Under the pieces are notes generated by a model. It was not told the origin of the DNA and made no database searches. It worked only from the letters and a program-made list of their open reading frames with translations. The position numbers were made by a program, and so were the translations under genes. From NCBI GenBank assembly GCA_005884305.1, contig VAYL01000055.1, positions 1 through 14,132 of the forward strand: 14,132 bases of DNA, read 5' to 3'. Positions 4,338 to 9,131 of this stretch are shown in pieces. How positions within the stretch are numbered: the stretch's first letter is position 1; the number at the start of each line of letters is the position of its first letter. Origin of the DNA: Actinomycetota bacterium (lineage in GTDB: Bacteria > Actinomycetota > Thermoleophilia > Solirubrobacterales > 70-9).

Positions 4338-4388
4338 AAAAGTCTCGGGACACACCCGCCTCCTCGTCTGCTTCAATCGTCTTACCAG

Positions 4389-4404
4389 AGAAAGGAGGTG
4401 GTCC
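4389..4404 (+). promoter_or_regulatory. Near-complete anti-SD complement (super Shine-Dalgarno)
   Basis: AGAAAGGAGGTGGTCC matches the full reverse complement of the standard bacterial 16S rRNA 3' end (AGAAAGGAGGTGATCC) at 15 of 16 positions, and the one difference would still form a G-U pair. It is far longer than any other ribosome-binding site in this window. It lies just before a micro-ORF at 4409. Its second half, GGTGGTCC (4397-4404), is perfectly complementary to GGACCACC at 4525-4532, so it could be masked in cis. Confidence 0.6.
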
Positions 4405-4408
4405 TAAC

Positions 4409-4453
4409 TTGATTCACATGTTTCTTGGGACGCTGGAGGTGCAGGGCCGCTAG
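4409..4453 (+). CDS. Candidate 14-codon leader peptide
   Basis: A micro-ORF begins with TTG at 4409 and ends with TAG at 4451-4453, encoding MIHMFLGTLEVQGR. An in-frame ATG at 4418 would give MFLGTLEVQGR. The TTG is 4 nt after the extended Shine-Dalgarno (10 nt after its GGAGG core), and the ATG is 19 nt after that core, so TTG fits better. The peptide has no run of one amino acid, so a classical amino-acid attenuator is not obvious. Two perfect hairpins follow the stop codon directly. That it is translated is inferred only from the ribosome-binding site, and no known peptide was recognised. Confidence 0.35.
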   Translation: MIHMFLGTLEVQGR

Positions 4454-4627
4454 GTGGCGGCCTGCCGGTGAGCTTCACCGGCGGAGGCAGGTCAGGCGGC
4501 GGAGCCGCCGCATCTGATCAGTGCGGACCACCCGGCGAATCCACCCCGGGCACCGGCGAAAAGGGAGGCGAGGAGCCACGTCCCGCCCCGCCATGAATCC
4601 CCGCTCGCTCCTACCCGCACCTTTGAG

Positions 4628-4660
4628 CGAAGGGCCGCCTGCGGGCGGCCCTTCGTCTTA
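4628..4660 (+). terminator. Intrinsic terminator-like hairpin
   Basis: A perfect 12-bp, GC-rich stem, CGAAGGGCCGCC (4628-4639) and GGCGGCCCTTCG (4644-4655), closes a TGCG loop and is followed by the short T-containing stretch TCTTA. The weak T-tract is common in high-GC actinobacteria. It would end + strand transcription from the gyr/dehydrogenase operon or from the RNA-like region. It could also act against converging transcription from the HNH gene, but the other strand lacks a T-tract. Confidence 0.75.
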
Positions 4661-4671
4661 CACCACTAACA

Positions 4672-4703
4672 GCACCAGGCAGTTTCGGGGCTAAAGCCCC
4701 TCA
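4672..4703. repeat. 32-nt dispersed repeat, copy 1
   Basis: This element contains CAGTTTCGGGGCTAAAGCCC and matches 9096-9127 at 30 of 32 positions. Its core is a short hairpin, GGGGC-TAAA-GCCCC. It lies 8 nt past the stop codon of the minus-strand HNH gene and 12 nt after the + strand terminator, so both copies sit at gene 3' ends. Confidence 0.8.
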
Positions 4704-4710
4704 TCTACAC

Positions 4711-5352
4711 CTATGCAGCGACCAGATACGGCTCCCAGGCGACCGGGATCCGCGGGCTCGCAAGCTGGATGAACACGGTTGGCCCCGGCGGTCGGGGGCT
4801 CGATCGCGGATGCATGCTCGCCTCGCGCGGCGTCTTATTGCCCTTCTTGCGGTTGCAGGGCGCGCAGGAGGCGACGATGTTCTCCCACACCGACTGGCCG
4901 CCGCGGCTGCGGGGGATCACGTGATCGACGGTGAGGCCCGCAGCCTGGCGCCCGCAGTACTGACAGGTCCACGCGTCGCGGGCGAGCACGGCCTTCCGGG
5001 TGATCTTCCGCCGGTGCACATCGCGCGGCACGCGCACGTACCGGACGAGCCTGATCACGCAGGGCCGCTCGAAGGTGAGCCGCTCGGAATGGAGGGCACC
5101 TTCGCCGCGCTCGACGATCTCCGCCCGCTCCTTAAGCACGAGGACTGTTGCCCGCCTGATGTTGCAGACGTTGATCGGTTCGTAGCTCGCGTTGAGGACC
5201 AGAACCCGGCCGCCGATGCCGACGTGGGTGCGGTGCCCGTTGAGGTGCGCGTGCGCCCCGTTTCCATTGAGGTGCGCTTCGGCCGCACCCCCCGCAAGCC
5301 CCGAAGTGCTCCCGCTTCGAAGGCCTACGTGAGGGTCGGCCGGCGCGTCCAT
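4711..5352 (-). CDS. HNH endonuclease family protein
   Basis: A 213-residue protein of the HNH nuclease family, of the type widespread in actinobacteria. A conserved N-terminal module (about residues 49-120) starts RVLVLNASYEPINV and includes VIRLVRYVRVPRDV. The nuclease module follows: zinc-binding CQYC (Cys130, Cys133) and SCAPC (Cys163, Cys166), with the catalytic-type DH at 143-144, Asn158 and Asn167 in CNRKKGNKTPREA. The first 47 residues are a low-complexity extension with a repeated AHLNG. The only ATG before the domain is at 5352, and it has no clear Shine-Dalgarno, so the true start is uncertain. The C-terminal 35 residues are Pro-rich. It is the last gene of the minus-strand group, 84 nt after pheA. 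Function is unknown: housekeeping nuclease or DNA repair/defence. It has no visible partner gene. Confidence 0.88.
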   Translation of the reverse strand: MDAPADPHVGLRSGSTSGLAGGAAEAHLNGNGAHAHLNGHRTHVGIGGRVLVLNASYEPINVCNIRRATVLVLKERAEIVERGEGALHSERLTFERPCVIRLVRYVRVPRDVHRRKITRKAVLARDAWTCQYCGRQAAGLTVDHVIPRSRGGQSVWENIVASCAPCNRKKGNKTPREASMHPRSSPRPPGPTVFIQLASPRIPVAWEPYLVAA

Positions 5353-5395
5353 AGCGCCACGATTGTAGACAGCGGCCCCGGTCGTCCCGCGAGGA

Positions 5396-5451
5396 GCAGG
5401 TGGCAGGGAGCAGGTAGAACCGGGGGCCTCTACCTGCTACTTGCTACCTGC
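5396..5451. repeat. Inverted array of 7-nt repeats (long imperfect hairpin)
   Basis: Three head-to-tail 7-mers on the left (GCAGGTG, GCAGGGA, GCAGGTA; 5396-5416) face three inverted 7-mers on the right (TACCTGC, TACTTGC, TACCTGC; 5431-5451). The 22-nt arms pair with one mismatch and two G-U pairs around a 12-nt loop. The right arm overlaps the 3' end of pheA, supplying its last codons and stop. As RNA it could end or stabilise the pheA transcript, but no T-tract follows on either strand. Confidence 0.8.
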
Positions 5452-6312
5452 TGCTGTTCCGGGGATGCCGTTCGTCGCGATCGGATAGCTGCCCAGCACC
5501 CGCACAGATTCTGCCTTTCGACGGAGCGCCTGAATCGCCTCCGCCACCGGCCCCTCGTCGACCGAGCCGTCGAGGTCGCAGAAGAACATGTAGCGACCAA
5601 GGCCCTGCCGCAGCGGCCGCGACTCGATTCTGGTGAGGTTGACGTCGCGGCTGGAGAACTCGGTCAGCGCCTCCACGAGCGCCCCGGGATGGTCGGCGCC
5701 GAGCTCCGAGAAGACCAGCGTTGTGCGCCATGGCCCTGTCCCACTCGGCCGCGTCCCCTCGGGTGCGATCCACACGAACCGGGTCACGTTCTCGAGGTTG
5801 TCCTCGACGCCCTCCCGCAGCACGACGCAGCCGTAGATCCGCGCGGCCGATGCCGCCCCCAGGGCCGCCCACGGCTCTTCGCTCGAGGCGACCGACCGCA
5901 CCGCGTCCGCCGTGCTTGCCGCGGCCCGCACGGTGGCCTGCGGCAGCTCCTCGCGGATGAACCGCGCGCACTGTGCGCTCGCCTGGGGATGGGAGAGGAC
6001 GATCGTGATCCGCTCGAGCGGCATTTCGCCGCGCGCGATCAGGCTGTGGCGGATGGGATGGTCGTGCTCGCCGGCGATCGTGATCCCCTCCGCCTCGAAC
6101 GCGAGCGTGTCGAGCGTGGAGCGCACGGCCCCCTCGATCGAGTTCTCGAAGGGAACGAGTGCCCGCCCGGCCTCTCCTTCGGCGACGGCGCGGATCGCCG
6201 CGTAAACGCTCGGGCGCGGGAGCGGGTCGATCTCGGTCTGGCCGACCGCGACGAGCAGAGCGTCTTCGGAGAACGTGCCCGCTGGACCGAGGAAGGCGAC
6301 TCGAGTTGCCAT
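5437..6312 (-). CDS. pheA: Prephenate dehydratase
   Basis: Converts prephenate to phenylpyruvate with loss of water and CO2, the committed step to phenylalanine; cytoplasmic. It is the 291-residue monofunctional form without a chorismate mutase domain. Catalytic-domain motifs in order: FLGPAGTFSEDAL (7-19), VPFENSIEGAV (53-63), SHPQASAQC (107-115), STADAVR (133-139), AALGAASAARIYG (149-161) and EDNLENVTRF (170-179) with the catalytic Thr177-Arg178-Phe179. A C-terminal ACT domain follows from about residue 196, with PGALVEAL and the phenylalanine-binding ESRP (230-233), so feedback inhibition by phenylalanine is expected. The ATG at 6312 directly precedes the conserved N-terminus but lacks a Shine-Dalgarno; leaderless or coupled translation is possible. 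The last five residues and the stop are encoded by the 7-nt repeat array. The upstream neighbour ends 53 nt before it. Confidence 0.95.
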   Translation of the reverse strand: MATRVAFLGPAGTFSEDALLVAVGQTEIDPLPRPSVYAAIRAVAEGEAGRALVPFENSIEGAVRSTLDTLAFEAEGITIAGEHDHPIRHSLIARGEMPLERITIVLSHPQASAQCARFIREELPQATVRAAASTADAVRSVASSEEPWAALGAASAARIYGCVVLREGVEDNLENVTRFVWIAPEGTRPSGTGPWRTTLVFSELGADHPGALVEALTEFSSRDVNLTRIESRPLRQGLGRYMFFCDLDGSVDEGPVAEAIQALRRKAESVRVLGSYPIATNGIPGTAAGSK

Positions 6313-6365
6313 GGGCGCGGAAGGTTACGTAGGGGCGAGCTCGAGCCGCCCACGACCGGGTGCGG

Positions 6366-7439
6366 CTACCGGAACGTCACCTGGTAGGTGGACCGGTTAT
6401 TGGTTGTGATCGTCTCGCCCGGCACCGGGAGCACCGTCACCTCGAGCGTCAGCTCGACGTTCTTCTCCGGCTGCGGATGAATCGGAAGCGTGGCGGTCTG
6501 GATGCCGCCGGGAGCGATCGTCCCGATCGTGGTCGTTCCGTCGATCGTCTGCGGCCCGCCGGTGAGGCTGTAGCTCACGCCAACCCCCTTCTCGTTGGCG
6601 CTGCCCTGGTTGGAGACCTCGACGTCGATCTCCGGGGCCCCGCTGCCCGAGATCGTCGTCGGCGTATCCGGGCTGAGCTGGACGTTTCCGGGCTTCACAA
6701 CCGTCTGCACGATCGCGACGCCGTGAGCGCCGGCAGTGACGTTCTTGGTCGAGATGGCCGAGATCGCTGTCGCCACCTGGAGCGGGTCGAGCCAGCGGCC
6801 GGGATCGGTCATGAAGACGCTCGCCGGCGCCTTCTCGTCGATTCCCTGGTCGGAGAGGACGCTGTCGATCTGGTCCTGCGCCTGCTTGTAGAGCACGTCG
6901 CTCGCCAGGAAGTACTGCATGTAGTCCGTGATGGACGTGACCGCCTTCGTTCGATCCGGGCCGGGATTGCCGAGCGCGGTGGAGATTGCGCTGGAGATCC
7001 CGCTCAGCGCCTGGGCGCGCAGGCTGTACGCCAGCTTCAGCTCGCTCTGCGCGTCGCTCAGCTCGCCCGGCGTGCTGAGCGCGTCGACGCGACTCGACAG
7101 GTTCTCCGCGGTCCCGCGGTCCGTGGCGATCTCGGCCTCGAATTCGAGCGGGCTCGCGTTGCCCGGGTCGCTGAGCTTGCCGAAGAAGTCGCCCGACAGC
7201 TGATTCGTCTGCGCCGTGACGGCCCGCAGATCGGACACGTAGTTCTCGAAGCTACGCGTCTTCCGGGCGTCCAGACAGCCCTTGATTCCGAGGATGATCA
7301 GGATCAGGACGACGACGAGCACGCCGATACCGACCGCGCGGCGCACGAGTATCTGCCGCTGGCGGTCGGGCCCACGGCGGGATGGCGGACCGGTGCCGCC
7401 CGGTGAGGGTCCCAGTTCTTCGTCGTCGAGGAACGCCAA
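6366..7439 (-). CDS. Single-pass membrane protein with C-terminal beta-rich domain, function unknown
   Basis: A 357-residue protein I cannot assign. About 33 polar, Pro/Arg-rich cytoplasmic residues are followed by a membrane helix at about 36-53 (GVLVVVLILIILGIKGC), so the rest should lie outside the membrane. Residues 60-245 look helical, with repeated amphipathic segments and no catalytic motif. Residues 250-357 look like an immunoglobulin-like or CARDB-type beta domain (IDVEVSNQGSANEKGV, then TLPIHPQPEKNVELTLEV and TTNNRS). CARDB-like folds are usually adhesive or structural. The start is a TTG at 7439 with no Shine-Dalgarno; a CATACT 14-19 nt before it could be a -10 box or hint at a slightly different start. 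It is divergent from the kinase gene and probably heads a minus-strand group with pheA and the HNH gene. An envelope role linked to the neighbouring cell-wall cluster is only a guess. Confidence 0.75.
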   Translation of the reverse strand: MAFLDDEELGPSPGGTGPPSRRGPDRQRQILVRRAVGIGVLVVVLILIILGIKGCLDARKTRSFENYVSDLRAVTAQTNQLSGDFFGKLSDPGNASPLEFEAEIATDRGTAENLSSRVDALSTPGELSDAQSELKLAYSLRAQALSGISSAISTALGNPGPDRTKAVTSITDYMQYFLASDVLYKQAQDQIDSVLSDQGIDEKAPASVFMTDPGRWLDPLQVATAISAISTKNVTAGAHGVAIVQTVVKPGNVQLSPDTPTTISGSGAPEIDVEVSNQGSANEKGVGVSYSLTGGPQTIDGTTTIGTIAPGGIQTATLPIHPQPEKNVELTLEVTVLPVPGETITTNNRSTYQVTFR

Positions 7440-7556: not shown

Positions 7557-9131
7557 ATGGTCGGCGAGGTAGTGATGGATCGCTTCCGGCTCTTGGAGCG
7601 CGTCGGCTCCGGTGGGATGGGCACCGTCTACAGAGCCTTCGACGAGCGGCTCCAGCGCCAGGTGGCGGTGAAGGAGATCACGAGCTCCGACCCGGCCCGG
7701 GTCGCTCGCGAGGCCCAGGCCGCCGCCCGCCTGAACCACCCCGGGATCGTAACGCTGTACGAGCTGGGGTCCGAGGGCGACCGGGCGCTCCTCGTGAGCG
7801 AGCTCGTGGATGGCGCGACGCTGGCGGAGCTCGCATGCTGTGGGGACCTATCCGACCGCGAGGTGGCGGAGTTCGGCGCCGATGTGTGCGAGGCGCTCGC
7901 GCACGCCCATGAGCGGGGGGTCATCCACCGCGACGTGAAGCCGCAGAACGTCATCGTCCGCGTCGACGACGGGGCCGGTCGCCGGGCGAAGCTCATGGAC
8001 TTTGGGATCGCGTCGCTCGTCGGCTCGCCGACCCTCACGGCGACGGGTGAGGTCGTCGGCACGCTCGCCTACATGGCGCCGGAGCAGGCCGCCGGGACCG
8101 GCTCGTCGGAGGCATCGGATGTCTACTCGCTCGCTCTGACCCTGTACGAGTGCTGGGCGGGCACGAATCCGGTCGCGGGCGACACGCCGGCGCAGACCGC
8201 CCGCCAGATCGGTAATCACCTGCCGCCGCTTTGCGACTACCGCCCCGACCTGCCAGCTCACCTGGCCGAGTGCCTCGACGCATGCCTGGACCCTGAGCCC
8301 GAGCTCCGTCCGGAGCTCGACGAGCTCGACCATCACCTCGACGCCTCGATCCCGAGGCTCGACGCGCGGTGCGCTGTGCCCGCGCAAGAGGGCCGGGAGG
8401 AGCCCGTCTCGGGCGAGCGTGGCGCGCTTCTGCGAGTCGGCCAGCTCGCGGCGCTCTGCGCCTGGGGCATCGCCGTGATGCTGCTCGCGGTCGCCGCTCA
8501 TCTACCGGGTCTCGCGCTGGTCCTCGGCGCCTTGAGCGTGCCGGCGATCCTCGTCGCGTCGTGGCTTCCATGGGCGGGGATCCCGGTTCTTGCCCCGCTT
8601 CTGGGCGCCGCCTCCGTAGGCGCCGCGTACCCGGCGCTCGCCGCCTGGCGCGGACCGCTGCGCGAGCGCGCGATCCTGGGCGCGCTGGGATGGTGCTGGA
8701 TGCTGTGTGGCGCCGCTGCCCTCGGGATCGGATCCGCGGCCGGCCTTATGGACGCGCCCCCGCACGACTGGACGCGCTCGACGGGCGATGCCACGAGCGG
8801 CCTGCTGGCACCACTCTTCTCGCCGGAGGCGCTGCTTGGGGCCGCCATCTTCGCCGGCGCCTCCCTGGCGCTCGGCGTGATCCTGCGAGCGCGGCACATA
8901 GCGGTGGCGCTCCTTGGAGCCGTTCTCTGGGCGGCCGGCGTCGACGCTGCGCTTCGGGTCGTGGGCGACGGCGCTCTCGCGGGCGTGCCCGTGGTGGCAG
9001 TCGCCGCCGCCGCGATCGCCGTGATCATGGAGTTCCGGCGCCGCGGAGCCCGGCCCGCGGTCCGCCGAGCACCGATACCCACAACACCTGGAACGGCACC
9101 AGCCAGTTTCGGGGCTAACGCCCCTCACTGA
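7557..9131 (+). CDS. Ser/Thr protein kinase with multi-spanning membrane domain
   Basis: A Hanks-type (PknB-like) kinase, 524 residues. Catalytic domain at about residues 10-262: Gly-rich loop GSGGMGTVY (17-25), ATP lysine Lys39 in VAVKE, Glu52 in the C-helix, HRDVKPQN (124-131) with catalytic Asp126, DFG (148-150), activation-loop threonines Thr161 and Thr163 aligned with PknB Thr171/Thr173, and APE (174-176), so it should be active. After a 30-residue linker the C-terminal half (about 292-491) is strongly hydrophobic with six or seven probable membrane helices, instead of one helix plus extracellular PASTA repeats. The ATG at 7557 gives MVGEVVMDRFRLLERVG, typical of the family; GTG 7572 or ATG 7575 are alternatives. 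The last 11 residues are encoded by a dispersed repeat. Its likely substrates are the FHA proteins and cell-wall enzymes encoded downstream. Confidence 0.92.
   Translation: MVGEVVMDRFRLLERVGSGGMGTVYRAFDERLQRQVAVKEITSSDPARVAREAQAAARLNHPGIVTLYELGSEGDRALLVSELVDGATLAELACCGDLSDREVAEFGADVCEALAHAHERGVIHRDVKPQNVIVRVDDGAGRRAKLMDFGIASLVGSPTLTATGEVVGTLAYMAPEQAAGTGSSEASDVYSLALTLYECWAGTNPVAGDTPAQTARQIGNHLPPLCDYRPDLPAHLAECLDACLDPEPELRPELDELDHHLDASIPRLDARCAVPAQEGREEPVSGERGALLRVGQLAALCAWGIAVMLLAVAAHLPGLALVLGALSVPAILVASWLPWAGIPVLAPLLGAASVGAAYPALAAWRGPLRERAILGALGWCWMLCGAAALGIGSAAGLMDAPPHDWTRSTGDATSGLLAPLFSPEALLGAAIFAGASLALGVILRARHIAVALLGAVLWAAGVDAALRVVGDGALAGVPVVAVAAAAIAVIMEFRRRGARPAVRRAPIPTTPGTAPASFGANAPH
9096..9127. 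repeat. 32-nt dispersed repeat, copy 2
   Basis: 30 of 32 positions are identical to 4672-4703. The two differences are one base near the left end and one in the hairpin loop (TAAC instead of TAAA), so the GGGGC/GCCCC stem is kept. It encodes the last 11 residues of the kinase (APASFGANAPH) in frame; the stop follows at 9129-9131. The hairpin may serve as the 3' end of the kinase transcript. Confidence 0.8.

Follow-up and report, generated by a model that had tools for sequence, protein, structure and literature searches.

Positions 4384–4656 of the window, by which we mean the whole 14,132-nucleotide stretch of DNA analysed here, have the look of an autonomous RNA gene that carries a promoter-like box and a terminator of its own. 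On sequence grounds, the element is homologous to the actinobacterial sRNA Ms_IGR-5 (Rfam RF02471), of which it is a very divergent relative lying outside the family's present definition. Comparison across relatives supports a conserved docking site for the 3′ tail of 16S rRNA, a conserved start, frame and stop of a micro-ORF, a conserved stem (P1) and kissing loop, and autonomy from neighbouring genes. The favoured reading, which we hold to be about as likely as not, is that of a translated regulatory RNA related to Ms_IGR-5, which would act in trans as a translation-dependent switch. The features of the element are collected in Table 1.

Table 1. Features of the element, in window coordinates
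Feature	Position	Strand	Remarks
Promoter-like box CTGCTTCAAT	4368–4377	+	6 nt upstream of the expected transcript start
Expected transcript 5′ end, A of ACCAG	4384	+	Base preceding P1; inferred from promoter spacing
P1 stem, 5′ strand CCAG	4385–4388	+	Covariation
Complement of the 16S rRNA 3′ tail, AGAAAGGAGGTGGTCC	4389–4404	+	In the P1 loop; very strong Shine-Dalgarno sequence
Micro-ORF	4409–4453	+	TTG start, 14 codons, TAG stop
Kissing strand GGGACG	4427–4432	+	Within the micro-ORF; covaries with the 3′ hairpin loop
P1 stem, 3′ strand CTGG	4433–4436	+	Within the micro-ORF; covariation
Second GGAGGTG motif	4435–4441	+	Overlaps the micro-ORF end; located in 68/68 loci of the window's order
P3 stem, 5′ strand	4447–4457	+	Around the stop codon; by eye
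Insertion that L011 and L014, of the same genus, lack	4458–4520	+	Limits by eye; holds CCGGTG and a hairpin repeat
P3 stem, 3′ strand CCACCCGGCG	4528–4537	+	By eye
P4 hairpin	4567–4592	+	6/7 pairs; loop CGTCCC (4579–4584) is the kissing partner
Intrinsic terminator hairpin	4627–4656	+	13 pairs including one G-U

Homologous loci, docking site and micro-ORF

A BLAST search with 4385–4660 hit 76 of 101 genomes, some of these hits being to the terminator or to a repeat only. The core 4385–4455 was recovered in 68 of the 101, own genome included, as one locus per genome, all of them belonging to the window's taxonomic order; L077 and L078, which duplicate L014 and L011, were removed. A pattern scan of the phylum with N5 spacing hit 12 of 396 genomes, but this spacing excludes the window's own type and the figure is therefore not a measure of prevalence. 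The named scan matched at least 120 stretches, and among the matches listed are records of Streptomyces, Mycobacterium, Nocardioides, Cellulomonas, Micromonospora, Acidimicrobiia, Conexibacter and Solirubrobacterales. Run against 178 genomes of the phylum, the covariance model R1, which represents the 5′ domain (71 positions, 64 sequences), gave a single match in each of 73 at E ≤ 0.001; under strict filters it found no match in the other 105, which we count against the best explanation. Pattern played no part in choosing the R1 hits, but R1 itself has a preference for CTAG, and the BLAST, pattern and R1 sets have some genomes in common.

Three matches carry labels from outside the Actinomycetota, namely L105 and L148 (Acidobacteria/Acidobacteriota) and L157 (Spirochaetia). 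All have complete-looking elements including the micro-ORF, and they may reflect either a wider spread or misassigned (misbinned) contigs. L174, labelled Rhodobacteraceae, has neither stop nor P1 and was taken as a chance match. It is excluded from the main counts of the spacing-box, GTCC-hairpin, fifth-pair and start-codon analyses and included in the P1 helix count, the nearest-ORF count, the pattern-set frame counts and the GTCC-hairpin shuffles.

An earlier note on this DNA had described a 16-nt complement of the 16S rRNA tail, and this is indeed present: AGAAAGGAGGTGGTCC and the tail GGATCACCTCCTTTCT form 15 Watson-Crick pairs and one G-U pair. The tail (within GGCTGGATCACCTCCTTTCT) was found exactly in 12 of the 41 genomes searched; a search for it in the window's own assembly gave no match. 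The 15-mer GAAAGGAGGTGGTCC has a single exact occurrence in the 2.35-Mb own assembly, where one other site differs by one mismatch. It is identical in 60 of the 68 loci, and each of the remaining eight carries one change, all pairs being kept through G-U. Among the model hits, the GTCC of the docking region is altered in 4 of 70 (L264, L266, L272, L285). By eye, the second GGAGGTG perhaps pairs with CACC at 4551–4554.

The 14-codon micro-ORF that the same note had seen is likewise there, with its start, frame and stop kept in relatives. The varying loop length had made the micro-ORF appear non-conserved, a view that was rejected because the frame must be counted from the stop. Counted from the end, a stop codon (TAG, TAA or TGA) is kept in 67 of the 68 BLAST loci, the sole exception being L014, in which a one-base deletion shifts the frame. 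Stops are also kept in all 121 distinct pattern cores (L174 set aside; TAG/TAA/TGA 94/7/20) and in all 70 R1 hits (54/2/14). Earlier in-frame stops amount to 0/950 in the R1 hits, as against 82/927 and 70/911 in the other two frames, when the four hits with a changed docking site are left out (66 of 70 used). The pattern loci (L174 included) give 2/1078 against 116/1052 and 89/1019, both in-frame stops preceding an ATG.

NTG is the first start encountered in frame within 16 nt in 59 of 67 BLAST, 118 of 121 pattern and 61 of 70 R1 loci, and the first in-frame NTG lies mostly 2–6 nt downstream of the docking site. All 20 exceptions (17 distinct loci) read ATC, ATT, ATA or ACG 2–3 nt past the docking site, a regularity noticed post hoc; near-cognate starts of this kind are reminiscent of infC. 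Start, open frame and stop are conserved across lineages, from which we infer a translated micro-ORF whose reading frame appears to be under strong selection. The peptide is not conserved. Ends of the type ...EVxxR or ...LEVxGR are common to many loci, and f5, f53, f7 and f8 read GGAGGT in a different frame, giving for example ...SGGGSS. Therefore, it is probably the act of translation, and not its product, that matters.

Conservation of the stop could be partly structural, as the codon overlaps the putative P3 stem and R1 prefers CTAG; the interchange of TAG, TGA and TAA argues against this. TAG is by far the commonest stop (94 of the 121 pattern cores, 54 of the 70 R1 hits). Such dominance is unusual for high-GC actinobacteria, and the excess may stem from a structural CTAG or from a release-factor effect.

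Stem P1 and the kissing loop

Across relatives, P1 is a stem of 4–6 bp around the docking site. In alignment A1, 92.8% of 251 cells are paired and 63 cells are changed on both sides. Its covariation reaches 0.595, compared with 0.169 ± 0.023 in shuffles that ignore kinship among loci; none of 500 shuffles was as high, and the value fell to 0.071 or less when the strands were slid. On two of the five measures, P1 did not rise above the shuffles, these being pairs with a double change (373/500) and further pair types (138/500). CCAG/CTGG is found in 62 of the 68 loci and CCGG/CCGG in six, while the complete range of pair types comprises CCAG/CTGG, CCGG/CCGG, CACG/CGTG, CGCG/CGCG, CCAA/TTGG, CCGA/TCGG and CGAC/GTCG. 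In 132 pattern loci (L174 included), the helix averages 4.33, whereas the shuffles reach at most 3.71.

The kissing contact joins the micro-ORF to the loop of P4, a hairpin that was assigned by inspection for seven loci, the window included. Matching changes are seen, among other pairs, in GGGACC/GGTCCC, AGGACC/GGTCCT, TGGACC/GGTCCA, CGGACC/GGTCCG, CCGGACG/CGTCCGG, TGGACA/TGTCCA, AGACC/GGTCT, GTGACC/GGTCAC and GCGCGACC/GGTCGCGC; in some loci the complements are weak or unconvincing. A hairpin of the GTCC type is present in 96 of 129 loci, compared with 13.8% of shuffles. With controls that again disregard kinship, the fifth pair is Watson-Crick in 61 of the 98 loci with a usable hairpin (out of 119), against a mean of 25.6 and a maximum of 40 in 2000 shuffles, and a loop complement of at least 6 nt occurs in 30 of 69 loci (one duplicate dropped), against a mean of 6.9 and a maximum of 17 in 300 shuffles. 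Where an ACN (Thr) codon is present, the fifth pair falls on its wobble base. A GGAC-type kissing complement was looked for in f5 (L278, L279, L283) and f53 (L282) and was not found, although the ORFs there are open. Judged by these comparisons, P1 and the kissing loop are the conserved pairings of the element.

The mutually exclusive hairpins of the earlier note are therefore to be replaced in their specifics: P1 (4385–4388/4433–4436) and the kissing contact (4427–4432/4579–4584) are conserved instead of the pairings it had named. The match of GGTGGTCC (4397–4404) to GGACCACC (4525–4532) exists, but its conservation does not, since GGACCACC stands at that place in the window only (1/68). It occurs anywhere in the searched stretch of three of the 68 loci, the copies in L057 and L073 lying elsewhere, and by eye it more probably pairs with GGTGG just past the stop. 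Similarly, CCGGTG at 4465–4470 and both copies of CACCGG are present, but they do not form a conserved switch, CCGGTG being found within the stretch searched in 8 of the 68 loci. The window's copy sits in an insertion that is missing from L011 and L014 and, by eye, is not shared by the third same-genus locus, L010. A dispersed hairpin repeat around GGCGGCGGAGCCGCCGC (4485–4512), with at least 12 other copies in the own genome, seems to have been inserted into this variable region of the element.

P3 was drawn by eye, with CCGTTAG/CTAACGG in L042 and CTCTGA/TCAGAG in L068 as examples. A further long-range pairing, GCUGGAY/RUCCAGC with GUGCGG/CCGCAC, was attractive by eye; a crude test gave a mean of 5.94 against 5.90 for shuffled sequences, and the pairing is therefore not claimed.

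Locus and kinship with Ms_IGR-5

The window runs from the end of gyrB through gyrA and an SDR gene to the element, and then to minus-strand HNH and pheA-like genes (names by eye and tblastn). A TGCTTCAAT-like stretch keeps a constant spacing to ACCAG in the 68 loci of the window's order, with G at −15 in 57, T at −13 in 59 and T at −8 in 58; this fixed distance of the promoter-like box is why the transcript is expected to begin at 4384. In the named and pattern loci, TANNNT stands at −20 or −21 relative to AAGGAGG in 97 of 129. With its core recurring in 68 of 101 genomes and an MFE z of −2.88, the element exceeds what chance would give. The terminator proposed in the earlier note was borne out, and a terminator-like hairpin lies downstream of the element in 57 of the 68 loci. 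Its statement that no plus-strand gene follows also holds, the next conserved gene being HNH on the minus strand (4711–5352); a plus-strand ORF at 4810–6387 is taken as an antisense artefact over the HNH and pheA-like genes. Its suggestion of a free RNA agrees with the wider picture: by crude ORF calls with L174 included, 56 loci have their nearest downstream ORF on the same strand and 55 have it on the opposite one, and thus no fixed cis target is seen.

A role as leader of the HNH gene was considered and rejected; the element often lies between gyrA and HNH, but many loci, viewed with 1.5-kb flanks, show neither. In L115, L120, L123, L131, L182, L188, L204 and L213, the next ORF, on the minus strand, is nitrobindin-like and not HNH, and in six loci a ygfZ-like gene precedes the element in place of gyrA (all names by eye). 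Directly beyond the terminator, 4656–4700 of the window holds a stretch of about 35–45 bp with the inverted repeat GGGGCTAAAGCCCC, which is dispersed in the own genome, partly in near-tandem rows. It accounts for at least 32 of 46 own-genome matches (40 of 90 candidates scored), with one copy at 9084–9124 of the window.

The earlier note recognised no known RNA family. This is right insofar as the window stays below every Rfam cut-off, a scan at the gathering threshold giving no match to any family; it is incomplete in that relatives link the element to RF02471 (Ms_IGR-5). The window aligns with RF02471 over the full length of the model (1–184) at 18.5 bits (E 0.047 and 0.025), below the cut-off of 45 bits. 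Of the 61 genomes searched in the window's class, six match RF02471 at E ≤ 0.001, and a single one of these (G059, 45.5 bits) exceeds the cut-off; none of 14 control genomes matches. The locus of G062 bridges the two, with a BLAST E of 1.6e-12 to the window core and 43.5 bits with RF02471, while R1, built from both kinds of loci, matches across the phylum. Intermediate sequences thus lead from the window to members above the cut-off, and because relatives bridge the gap in this way, the element is considered homologous to Ms_IGR-5.

Twenty loci were chosen for scoring against RF02471, and 11 of them attain its cut-off: three mycobacterial (175–186 bits), two from Streptomyces, one each from Nocardioides, Micromonospora, Cellulomonas and Actinomycetospora, and two labelled Acidobacteria/Acidobacteriota. 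Loci that the motif picked up in mycobacteria and Streptomyces score 78–186 bits. The nine below include L136 (Conexibacter), L139 (Solirubrobacterales), L126 (Acidimicrobiia) and L157 (Spirochaetia). The 5′ GGAGGUGGUCC, GGAC..GAGGUG and the downstream hairpin with a GUCC loop follow one another in the same order as in RF02471. Ms_IGR-5 shares the 5′ docking sequence with the window and the GUCC-loop hairpin with its relatives; it differs in that the Rfam structure line displayed draws neither P1 nor the kissing loop, and in that Rfam lists the family among sRNA genes.

A second family, RF01867 (CC2171, a Caulobacter sRNA), reached 17.7 bits against window positions 4382–4463, short of its cut-off of 75 bits, and a search for it in the own genome gave no match. 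Its 5′ end GAAAGGAGGUGAUCC also complements the 16S tail. However, the visible match comprises the 5′ motif and one stem only, with 106 model positions outside the displayed alignment. CC2171 is possibly an analogous RNA in another phylum; a literature search on it found nothing.

Passages of published studies provide some experimental background. They support Ms_IGR-5 in S. lividans by RNA-seq (PMC8079986), describe an sRNA transcription unit in S. avermitilis (PMC8780764) and place ribosome-protected reads on the MS_IGR-5 homologues of M. abscessus and M. smegmatis (PMC4974804). The passage on the two mycobacteria also reports such reads on many non-coding RNAs (PMC4974804), and footprints are therefore weak proof of translation; an RNA that pairs with 16S rRNA could be protected without being translated. 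In the portions available of the literature on Ms_IGR-5, anti-SD sRNAs, mycobacterial sRNAs and Ribo-seq, no function for Ms_IGR-5 was found.

A proposed translation-dependent switch and its rivals

According to the proposed mechanism, the RNA would start at about 4384 and end after the terminator at 4627–4656, and in its 5′ hairpin the ribosome would meet a sequence complementary to nearly the whole 16S tail, with the micro-ORF coming after it. Because P1 and the kissing strand sit in and around the ORF, translation would open both P1 and the kissing lock: a ribosome reading the roughly 14 codons would have to unfold P1 and break the contact with P4, and would terminate just past P1. Without ribosomes the RNA would lock, and the loaded and locked folds would constitute two functional states. 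These may differ in activity or stability, with the 3′ part acting in trans or setting the stability of the RNA, which would report ribosome or initiation status. The term 'translation-sensing' used in the earlier note is a fair reading, since the RNA has a site where the ribosomal anti-SD can dock and its micro-ORF stays open in the loci examined.

Next in rank after the translation switch comes a 30S-binding or sequestering RNA, a sponge or hibernation aid, whose micro-ORF would simply let captured ribosomes start, stop and leave. A nearly invariant 15-nt complement exposed in a hairpin loop, the second conserved GGAGGTG and the ribosome-protected reads described for homologues in PMC4974804 all speak for it. 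We nevertheless consider it rather unlikely, as sequestration would need neither an open frame with interchangeable stops nor a covarying kissing loop, and each of the 73 matching genomes has a single match. More improbable is a dual-function RNA with a peptide of 10–15 residues as its product. The conserved frame, start and stop and the recurring ...EVxxR or ...LEVxGR ends would suit it, but the sequence is wholly different in f5, f53, f7 and f8, and the EV and Thr codons are conserved because they coincide with RNA motifs. SgrS/SgrT and RNAIII are dual-function small RNAs that carry a short ORF; the element differs from them in that its conserved fold runs through the ORF and its peptide is not conserved.

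Two further possibilities would leave the micro-ORF aside or tie it to a neighbour. An ordinary trans-acting antisense sRNA would use its structure and SD-like sequence to pair with targets or to gain stability, its frame arising as a by-product. This would fit the filing of Ms_IGR-5 as an sRNA by Rfam and a free-standing unit with terminator and no fixed neighbour. A by-product frame would not be expected to give 0/950 earlier stops and 70/70 terminal stops, and we hold this account to be less probable again. A cis-acting leader or attenuator of a downstream gene is largely refuted and very improbable: although micro-ORF and RNA folds resemble leader peptides, there is no consistent same-strand gene downstream (56 versus 55, crude ORFs), the window's next conserved gene is on the opposite strand, and 57 of 68 loci have a terminator-like hairpin. 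Attenuator leader peptides and infC-type start control also combine a short ORF with translation that alters RNA folding, and with non-AUG, sometimes AUC or AUU, starts; the element differs from leader peptides in having no fixed downstream gene and in being free-standing with a terminator.

The translation switch can be stated more boldly, and here only tentatively, as possible but short of probable: an RNA widespread in the phylum with the ribosome as its sensor, offering a docking site close to the maximum, in which completion of a dispensable micro-ORF product would choose between kissing-locked and opened RNA and would thereby measure initiation capacity, acting in trans. Its often non-AUG starts, AUC and AUU among them, should be sensitive to initiation factors. 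A family catalogued as an sRNA appears, on the comparisons above, to carry a strongly selected reading frame that is overlapped by a kissing loop absent from the Rfam structure line. This would help to account for the published ribosome-protected reads on Ms_IGR-5, and it ties in the loci labelled Conexibacter (L136), Solirubrobacterales (L139) and Acidimicrobiia (L126), all of which fall below the Rfam cut-off.
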